NCBI GenBank assembly: GCA_013822735.1
Contig: PNKZ01000002.1
Location: 558,001 to 622,000, forward strand
Direction: 5' to 3'
DNA from: Pirellula sp.
GTDB lineage: Bacteria > Planctomycetota > Planctomycetia > Pirellulales > PNKZ01
Length of the DNA: 64,000 nt
Shown: positions 31,956 through 34,334 of the stretch, piece by piece
How positions within the stretch are numbered: position 1 is the stretch's first letter
Layout of the letters: every line of letters starts with the position of its first letter
Translations under genes and position numbers: made by a program
The notes under the pieces: generated by a model
What the model saw: the letters and a program-made list of their open reading frames with translations, nothing else
Databases searched by the model: none
What the model was told of the DNA's origin: nothing

Positions 31956-32348
31956 ATGTTCTACGTCTGGTGTACTGTCGCCGCGGTGTTGAGCTTCTTC
32001 GTCAGCTTGGCGGCGTGCGGCTATATTTTGCTGCGGCTGCCGACGAATTACTTCGTCGAACACTCGAAGCCGAAGTTGGCTTGGCCGACCGATGCGGCAG
32101 GCTGGGCGCTGCGCATCGGCAAGAACGTCGTCGGCGCCGCCATCCTGACGGCCGGCGTCGTAATGTTGTTTACGCCGGGGCAGGGGATCTTGGCGATTCT
32201 GCTGGGCCTGATGCTCATCGACTTCCCCGGCAAGCACGCGCTCGTACGACGATTGCTCAGCAGCGGCAAGGTGCTCGCCGCGGCCAATCGCTGGCGCGCG
32301 AAGTTCGACAAACCGCCGCTCGAGGCGCCGCCGCACGCGGGAGCTTAG
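31956..32348 (+). CDS. small membrane protein, PGPGW-like
   Basis: 130 residues. Hydrophobic helices lie at about 3-28 and 57-87, the second pair region containing LFTPGQGILAILLGLMLIDF, which resembles the PGPGW family of two-to-three-helix membrane proteins. The tail is basic (RRLLSSGKVLAAANRWRAKF). No operon partner. Function unknown. Confidence 0.75.
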   Translation: MFYVWCTVAAVLSFFVSLAACGYILLRLPTNYFVEHSKPKLAWPTDAAGWALRIGKNVVGAAILTAGVVMLFTPGQGILAILLGLMLIDFPGKHALVRRLLSSGKVLAAANRWRAKFDKPPLEAPPHAGA

Positions 32349-32436
32349 TCGAGCCCGAAATCAAGCGCACTTTTAGGCCGGCCAAAAGTTGCCTGGAGAT
32401 CTTTTGCGCGTTGCGGTAAGGTGCGGGATGGTTTGT

Positions 32437-32539
32437 GTAGTCCGCCACTCCGTGGCGGAAGTGGGCGTTGCATCGTCGTGAGCGATCGCCAACGTGGACG
32501 ATAGGCAGCGCGCATTTCCGCCACGGAGTGGCGGACTAC
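32437..32539. repeat. 103-bp element with 24-bp perfect terminal inverted repeats (family 2 hairpins)
   Basis: Positions 32437-32460 and 32516-32539 are exact reverse complements over 24 nt. Each arm is itself a hairpin, TCCGCCAC-TCC-GTGGCGGA. The 55-nt interior is partly self-complementary (CATCGTC against GACGAT). The layout resembles a pair of REP hairpins in opposite orientation (a BIME) or a very small non-autonomous element. There is no open reading frame. Confidence 0.8.
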
Positions 32540-32545
32540 TTTGAC

Positions 32546-32681
32546 CACTTACGTCGATTCTTTAAACGGGCCCTGCGCAGATAACTCGTGGTTATCTGCG
32601 CACAACCCTAAAACCCACAAGGGGTGCGCAGATAGGGTGAGTTATCTGCGCAGGAGCGAGTCCGACGAATCGACGTAAGTG
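32546..32681. repeat. nested four-arm inverted repeat able to adopt two folds
   Basis: The outer 15-bp inverted repeat is CACTTACGTCGATTC (32546-32560) with its complement at 32667-32681. Inside are four copies of TGCGCAGAT in alternating orientation, starting at 32574, 32594, 32625 and 32644. Copies 1 and 2 form a perfect 12-bp hairpin with loop TCGTG, and copies 3 and 4 a 10-bp hairpin. Alternatively copies 1 and 4 pair over 15 bp and copies 2 and 3 pair over 10 bp. I do not recognise this as attC, dif or a known transposon end. Confidence 0.75.

Positions 32682-34334
<1,653 letters not shown>

Follow-up and report, generated by a model that had tools for sequence, protein, structure and literature searches.

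A palindrome upstream of enolase in Pirellula sp. as the tail of a dispersed, putatively transcribed repeat unit

Correia, pneumococcal BOX and ERIC are modular intergenic repeats, i.e., dispersed, short and structured mosaics that sometimes contain promoters. We know of no repeat of this type that carries a boxA antitermination signal; the "boxA" of the pneumococcal element is an unrelated name. The unit described below resembles these repeats in its general description. According to PMC3733652, REPs are palindromes of 20–40 bp with a GTAG or CGTC foot, and REP/BIME sequences are intergenic, palindromic, species-specific, present in high copy number, often located at the 3' ends of genes and clustered with other repeats. 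The present unit is alike in these properties, but it is 250–600 bp long and oriented, has a promoter-like head, sometimes a boxA, and a tail of two hairpins between constant 11-mers, and no RAYT partner was found for it. The class 3 repeats of the TnpA-Y1 family in Planctomycetes share the atypical secondary structures at high copy number; according to PMC6006769, they border class 3 genes, with CnGA as their foot, whereas the tails studied here border none of 34 Y1 loci. The putative succession of promoter region, boxA and untranslated structured RNA would be shared with rRNA and CRISPR leaders (PMC7862264 and PMC12691694). In contrast to these leaders, the boxA-like word in the present case heads dispersed short repeats with no repeat-spacer array, rRNA or tRNA inside.

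The window analyzed here is a stretch of 64,000 nucleotides of a Pirellula sp. genome (contig PNKZ01000002.1, positions 558,001–622,000), for which a preliminary description had reported a palindrome with four arms upstream of enolase. In literature searches on the 11-mer, on boxA in connection with repeats, non-coding RNA or CRISPR, and on repeats, structured RNAs and small RNAs of planctomycetes, the unit was not encountered (most subscription journals and preprints lay outside the scope of this search). The unit would stand out among dispersed palindromic intergenic repeats by its oriented promoter-like head, by a boxA that some copies carry and by arms that change in concert.

The palindromic tail and its family

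All features previously ascribed to the palindrome were recovered exactly in the window sequence (Table 1). The four alternating arms lie within a perfect outer inverted repeat of 15 bp (23 nt at 91% in an extended version), and the distance of 7 nt to the neighboring REP-like element, the family 2 of the preliminary description, was correct. Pairing of adjacent arms results in stems of 12 and 10 bp, while arms 1 and 4 together with their neighboring bases form a perfect 16-bp pair (32572–32587/32639–32654). The RNA fold of the palindrome has a predicted energy of −93 kcal/mol compared to a mean of −44.1 kcal/mol for shuffled sequences (z −12.4; none of 200 shuffles was as good), and folding with DNA parameters gave z −11.5. 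The structure is far beyond chance. No Rfam 15 family matched the palindrome at E values up to 1, and its assignment to a known structured RNA family was rejected in the absence of a match at the gathering score. The adjacent REP pair (32442–32533) showed a match to MIR7486 that was below threshold (27.3 bits, gathering score 67; Rfam 15).

Table 1. Features of the unit and its surroundings in the window (positions refer to the window)
Feature	Position	Strand	Description
Head start	32376–32387	+	GGCCGGCCAAAA, pointing at the tail; about 170 nt upstream of the palindrome
Head (whole)	32376–32422		Window copy
Promoter-like hexamers	32394–32422	+	TGGAGA (32394–32399), 17-nt spacer, TAAGGT (32417–32422)
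REP pair (family 2)	32437–32539		GTAGTCCGCC...GGCGGACTAC, between head and tail
Left outer arm	32546–32560	+	CACTTACGTCGATTC; contains the conserved 11-mer ACTTACGTCGA (32547–32557)
First hairpin	32574–32602	+	Arm 1 TGCGCAGATAAC (32574–32585, +); arm 2 GTTATCTGCGCA (32591–32602, −)
Linker	32603–32624	+	CAACCCTAAAACCCACAAGGGG; one of the family's best-conserved regions
Second hairpin	32625–32652	+	Arm 3 TGCGCAGATA (32625–32634, +); arm 4 GTTATCTGCGCA (32641–32652, −)
Right outer arm	32667–32681	−	GAATCGACGTAAGTG; TCGACGTAAGT, the inverse of the left 11-mer (32670–32680)
Enolase ORF	33027–34334	+	435 aa; co-directional with the unit

Judged from its sequence relatives, the palindrome is not a one-off structure but forms the tail end of a repeated unit that measures about 250–600 bp in total. 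The order and orientation of the parts are fixed, with the head first, then in some copies a boxA-like sequence and in many a REP pair, and the tail last; in the window the unit spans positions 32376–32681. It contains no intact boxA; the place taken by the REP pair is occupied in other copies by boxA followed by REP. The unit begins 27 nt after the stop codon of an upstream ORF of 130 aa (31956–32348), and 345 nt separate the end of its tail from the start codon of enolase. The proposal that the locus is a hot spot for structured DNA fits these observations, since a REP pair lies between head and tail here and at several other loci.

The genome-wide search that had been suggested revealed that the core of the palindrome is not unique. 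The 21-mer CCCACAAGGGGTGCGCAGATA, taken from the linker and the third arm and searched with up to three mismatches, is present in 46 copies in the genome (type A; 39 exact, 7 with one mismatch), and a further match with three mismatches falls inside a known copy. The same 21-mer was absent from three congeners and from the reversed control, and the entire 155-bp element had no match (E ≤ 0.001) in the family's six other genomes. Searched against its own genome, the 155-bp element matched in 101 pieces, 40 out of 103 initial candidates having been scored. In alignments of 30 and of 35 copies, a common tail layout was seen: ACTTACGTCGA, a stretch of about 16 variable bases, hairpin 1, the near-constant linker of 22 nt, hairpin 2, 12–17 variable bases and TCGACGTAAGT. 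The 35 aligned tails derive from 38 collected ones, three of which (L014, L016, L017) were left out because of irregular ends. In a second subtype, type B, the 11-mers point outward and lie exactly 135 nt apart, and the hairpin core is related; 18 copies were aligned, and at least 20 such cores are present among the own loci examined. One reading frame (NRRK...GALTNKGAHY...LTSI) is free of stop codons over the 150-nt element at the 18 type B loci L049–L066. A protein-coding function of type B was set aside, as the entropy is flat over the codon positions (0.48, 0.57, 0.55) and residues such as Ser, Trp and Cys alternate.

The 11-mer ACTTACGTCGA occurs 183 times in the genome compared to two occurrences of the reversed word. 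Among 196 genomes of the order, an excess was found in the congeners G005 (231; MAG UWPOB_PLAC3, JAFLCO01) and G004 (24; "new MAG-44", JAEUIN01) as well as in G057 (53), G012 (21) and G113 (19); most of the genomes hold 0–8 copies and some 9–13. The 53 sites of G057 belong to another multi-copy hairpin element, which is often situated near contig ends, and may be a coincidence. On two IMG/VR contigs (L131, L132) and at one locus each of Verrucomicrobiales (L148) and Pirellulaceae (L172), TCGACGTAAGT and ACTTACGTCGA are paired at a distance of 13–15 nt and no tail was seen; in L132, the pair is present as three tandem variants. Several copies in the own genome are located about 23–45 nt from contig ends (C31:24, C14:24, C4:24, C28:42 and the ends of C18 and C22), which suggests that an adjoining long repeat broke the assembly.

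The head module and the boxA-like word

The flank alignments contain a second conserved block, which consists of GGCCGGCCAAAA, CTGGAGA/TGGAAA, 16–18 nt and a −10-like hexamer (TATAAT in L005 and L027, TAACGT or GANAAT in many copies), followed in part of the copies by TGATCTTTGGCAATT. An oriented head was found upstream of 42 of the 46 own tails that have at least 600 nt of upstream sequence (27 of 30 type A, 15 of 16 type B; each locus counted once, loci chosen for boxA left out), the exceptions being L008, L013, L021 and L062. Heads in the wrong orientation were present upstream of 10 of these 46 tails; downstream, none was found in the same orientation as the 42 oriented heads and one in the opposite orientation. 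With the boxA-chosen and later loci included, the head lies upstream of 46 of 51 tails. The head motif set was encountered six times in the 64-kb window (both strands) and not once in 26 kb of control loci.

The hexamers of the window copy were assigned by eye from the family alignment and were not called by a strict consensus scan; a strict sigma-70 scan of the window, L022 and L181 was negative for promoters. Scans for intrinsic terminators were negative in the window and in L181, and a terminator was rejected there; in L022, three terminator-like sites were detected (0.9 expected). When the head model was applied to the 196 genomes, at least 25 matches each were obtained in the own genome and in G005, eight in G004, nine in G193, one each in G001, G083, G157, G177 and G189, and none in the congener G006. 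The match in G083 is a 16S leader (the 16S rRNA gene was recognized by eye), and the locus in G177 lacks the boxA word. Four loci of G193 (L239, L247, L251, L254), a genome of another family of the order, and one of G189 (L238) possess a diverged head, CCGGCCAAAAATCGCCT...TGCTAAATTG...TTGTTCTTTGACAACTT. In the four G193 loci, a partly conserved stretch of about 330 nt comes after it, in which TTTTGCG boxes occur; GACTTAC is a further component of this diverged unit.

The boxA-like word TCTTTGRCAATT occurs at 34 places in the genome and is absent from the control. A script assigned 21 of these to heads; two lie in tRNA arrays, one in the region before the 23S rRNA gene and three in other places; seven fell outside the script's classes, three of which are matches of the head model. 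Inspection of 13 loci placed two between tRNA genes, one about 300 bp before the 23S rRNA gene, seven in heads and three elsewhere. The two tRNA arrays (L225, L226) have 14 and 13 Rfam tRNA matches per 2.5 kb, with boxA between the tRNA genes. Upstream of tails that had not been chosen for boxA, the exact word was rarer than first counted, with 12 cases among 30 type A tails and none among 16 type B tails. In the head alignment A4, the invariance of GGCCAAA and boxA is a consequence of its construction, as the copies were selected for both.

Congeners, folding and genomic context

The 11-mer sites outside the own genome were collected in 63 stretches, 59 of which originate from G005, two from G004 and one each from Verrucomicrobiales and Pirellulaceae; the latter two records hold single site pairs only. 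The congener sites are spaced 28/142–147/28 or 39/122/39 nt with few exceptions, and 52 complete elements (50 of G005, 2 of G004) were extracted. Their arms are GTGCGTAC, GTGCGTGCAA or GTGCGCAC, in G004 also TGCGCATCTA, compared to TGCGCAGATAAC in the window species, and the arms within one element mostly change together. Random drift of the arms in other strains, which the preliminary description had named as evidence against its view, was not what we found: the congener arms differ but are still complementary to each other. The same layout with different arms is located upstream of enolase in two of three congeners. In G005, the head lies at −737 and the sites at −643 to −443 relative to enolase; in G004, a head at −437 is accompanied by four TGCGCA boxes and no 11-mers; and in G006, neither head nor 11-mer sites were found. 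A Y1_Tnp match (G006:C167:21029–21253, L213) lies less than 2 kb from enolase in G006, the congener without the unit at this place.

Because the arms of type A hardly vary, covariation in these tails is uninformative: neither fold surpasses shuffled alignments, and in the single variable column, two double changes favor the nested and one the tandem fold. For 29 congener tails (28 of G005, 1 of G004), the tandem fold pairs 95.7% of the cells with double changes in 8 pairs and 42 cells, while the nested fold pairs 90.5% with double changes in 7 pairs and 37 cells. The 42 double-changed cells of the tandem fold compare with 13.2 in shuffles and its score of 0.233 with 0.115 (reached by 0 of 500 shuffles each); the number of pairs with double changes (8 vs. 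6.2; 39 of 500) and of pair types (10 vs. 10.8) is not outstanding. Because the arms mostly change together, both folds exceed all 500 shuffles in paired cells, double-changed cells and score; neither does so in pair types. In the congener tails, a fifth arm is a potential competitor of arm 3 (99% paired), and RNAalifold reported no covariation for type B. Tandem hairpins, which fit the congener tails somewhat better than the nested fold, are favored, and a competition between arms is possible.

The spacing of the 11-mer sites is associated with the orientation of the next gene, as determined from gene calls by a simple codon score rather than annotation. Own tails with a spacing of 116–120 nt are followed by a convergent gene in 17 cases and by a co-directional gene in four (one without a called gene), those with 121–124 nt in 2 and 11 cases, respectively (one without a called gene; p = 0.0003, with the four cores that lack a site pair left out). 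In the congeners, the 28-type faces 27 convergent and 8 co-directional genes (two without a called gene) and the 39-type 4 and 7 (four without a called gene), which corresponds to p = 0.024 for G005 plus one G004 element and to 0.026 without the latter.

For six own loci, orthologous positions were sought through the flanking sequences in three congeners, and 3 of the 18 combinations, those with both flanks lying together, were informative. In all three, the unit is absent between the orthologous genes: the gap measures 395 nt in the own genome and about 41 nt in G005 for L013, 424 and about 145 nt in G005 for L020, and 382 and about 140 nt in G004 for L009. The empty stretches contain neither an 11-mer (up to one mismatch) nor GCCGGCCAAA; this statement is based on the flank coordinates and the motif check. 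At the L009 site in G004, a promoter-like stretch, CCGCCACGTTAA, remains (by eye), while the tail and GGCCGGCC are gone. Conversely, 8 of 15 flank matches between own and G005 element loci lie within 600 nt of an element of the other genome, compared to an expectation of 21% (p = 0.005), with a cut-off picked after the list had been seen and with one element-to-element match, the G004 match L053–L111 and the enolase matches left out of the count. Since positions are shared more often than expected, part of the copies may be long-standing, fixed ones and not the result of recent insertion. The two flanks of L088 match different G005 loci (L178 and L190), each beside an element, as if rearranged at the repeat.

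Explanations for the unit and their implications

From its sequence features, we consider it somewhat probable that the family represents a dispersed, amplifying non-coding repeat unit that behaves like a small transcription unit; its transcription and mobility are what we infer. RNA polymerase would start in the head, and a boxA, where present, would recruit the antitermination complex of NusB/S10, which would protect the untranslated, hairpin-rich RNA from early termination. The tail would fold as tandem hairpins in the 3' part of this RNA. Units with the shorter spacing (own 119 nt, G005 28-type) mostly abut a convergent gene at its 3' end; those with the other spacing (own 121–123, G005 39-type), such as the enolase copy, more often point into the following gene, for which they could provide promoter and leader. 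Amplification within the species would be carried out by an enzyme. The suggestion of a small mobile element is consistent with the 46 dispersed copies and the three empty orthologous sites.

Among the alternatives, an element of gene borders, in which the tail is a bidirectional terminator or a stabilizer of 3' ends kept by selection and copied by ordinary duplication, appears unlikely. The positions of the 28-type tails are as expected for such an element, as 27 of 35 (34 of G005, 1 of G004) face a convergent gene, with the stop codon at most 30 nt away in 21 of these 27, and short T runs follow the outer sites. However, the terminator scans of the window and L181 were empty, and the head, the boxA and the co-directional units located hundreds of nt from the next gene are left unexplained. 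A MITE-like non-autonomous DNA transposon with ACTTACGTCGA as terminal repeats bound by a transposase acting in trans would account for dispersed copies, inverted 11-mers at a largely fixed spacing and the empty orthologous sites. We regard it as decidedly unlikely, because the unit is asymmetric, with 11-mers bounding the tail and no such terminal repeat at the head end, and because target duplications of at least 4 nt are not in excess over shuffles at the outer 11-mers of 68 elements (37 28-type and 14 39-type of the congeners, 17 own type B; lengths 2–10, offsets 0–7). The excess at 2–3 nt is small (own type B at length 3: 4 vs. 1.1 and 1.3). The lack of target duplications of at least 4 nt at these sites weakened a DDE-type MITE. 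The near-constant 11-mer beside changing arms, and spacings of 28 and 39 nt that differ by 11 nt or about one helical turn, are compatible with an array of DNA sites for a regulator or nucleoid protein, for which transcription would be irrelevant. The earlier idea of a protein-binding array is a candidate insofar as the sequence of ACTTACGTCGA and, with few exceptions, its spacing are kept, but arm pairing maintained by compensatory changes is needless for a site bound as duplex, and head and boxA again find no explanation; such an array seems quite improbable.

The switch between tandem and nested folds of RNA or DNA, as originally proposed, is very improbable. The window copy could adopt either fold, two of the three informative double changes of type A agree with nesting, and the fifth congener arm offers a competitor for arm 3. 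On the other hand, the congener tails are better fitted by tandem hairpins, the type A arms are nearly invariant, the core is one of 46 dispersed near-identical copies rather than a one-off device, and the long rod of the window copy is a folding prediction. Mobilization as a REP/BIME family by a RAYT (TnpA-Y1) is extremely improbable, although the tails are palindromic, intergenic and numerous, the own genome has eight Y1_Tnp matches (one below the cut-off) and the neighboring family 2 borders a Y1 gene. Across 34 Y1 loci, of which 8 are own and 26 come from four relatives, no 11-mer cluster was found within about 1.5 kb, so RAYT mobilization of the tails was rejected; two of these loci have one lone 11-mer match with one mismatch. 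Moreover, no GTAG/GTGG or CGTC foot was found beside the arms in the 35 aligned tails; the 11-mer contains CGTC, but about 16 nt away from the arm. Family 2 itself looks like an ordinary RAYT-borne REP pair, because the GTAGTCCGCC...GGCGGACTAC repeat borders a Y1_Tnp gene on both sides at L035 (G000:C9:188361–188594 with flanks). In the window, a weak Y1_Tnp match (L037, 23566–23781, −; 229-aa frame) lies about 9 kb from the element with no 11-mer nearby.

Returning to the small transcription unit, a further step can be proposed tentatively, with more doubt than the basic reading: the intact copies might be selfish or regulatory non-coding RNA genes, each with its own promoter and a host rRNA-type boxA, which produce an antiterminated structured RNA, spread within the species and have their arms renewed in concert in each species, with the TTTTGCG unit of G193 as a diverged relative in another family of the order. 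If the reading as antiterminated transcription units holds, an antitermination signal regarded as a mark of rRNA, tRNA and CRISPR transcription would have been taken up by a dispersed repeat, and each genome would harbor many untranslated transcription units at gene borders, including related ones before enolase in three of the four congeners. The unit would then provide a testable way for a non-coding repeat to escape Rho, and an example of hairpin arms that change in concert between closely related species. Transcription aside, the findings define a repeat family and offer an explanation for the mosaic intergenic regions of these planctomycetes.
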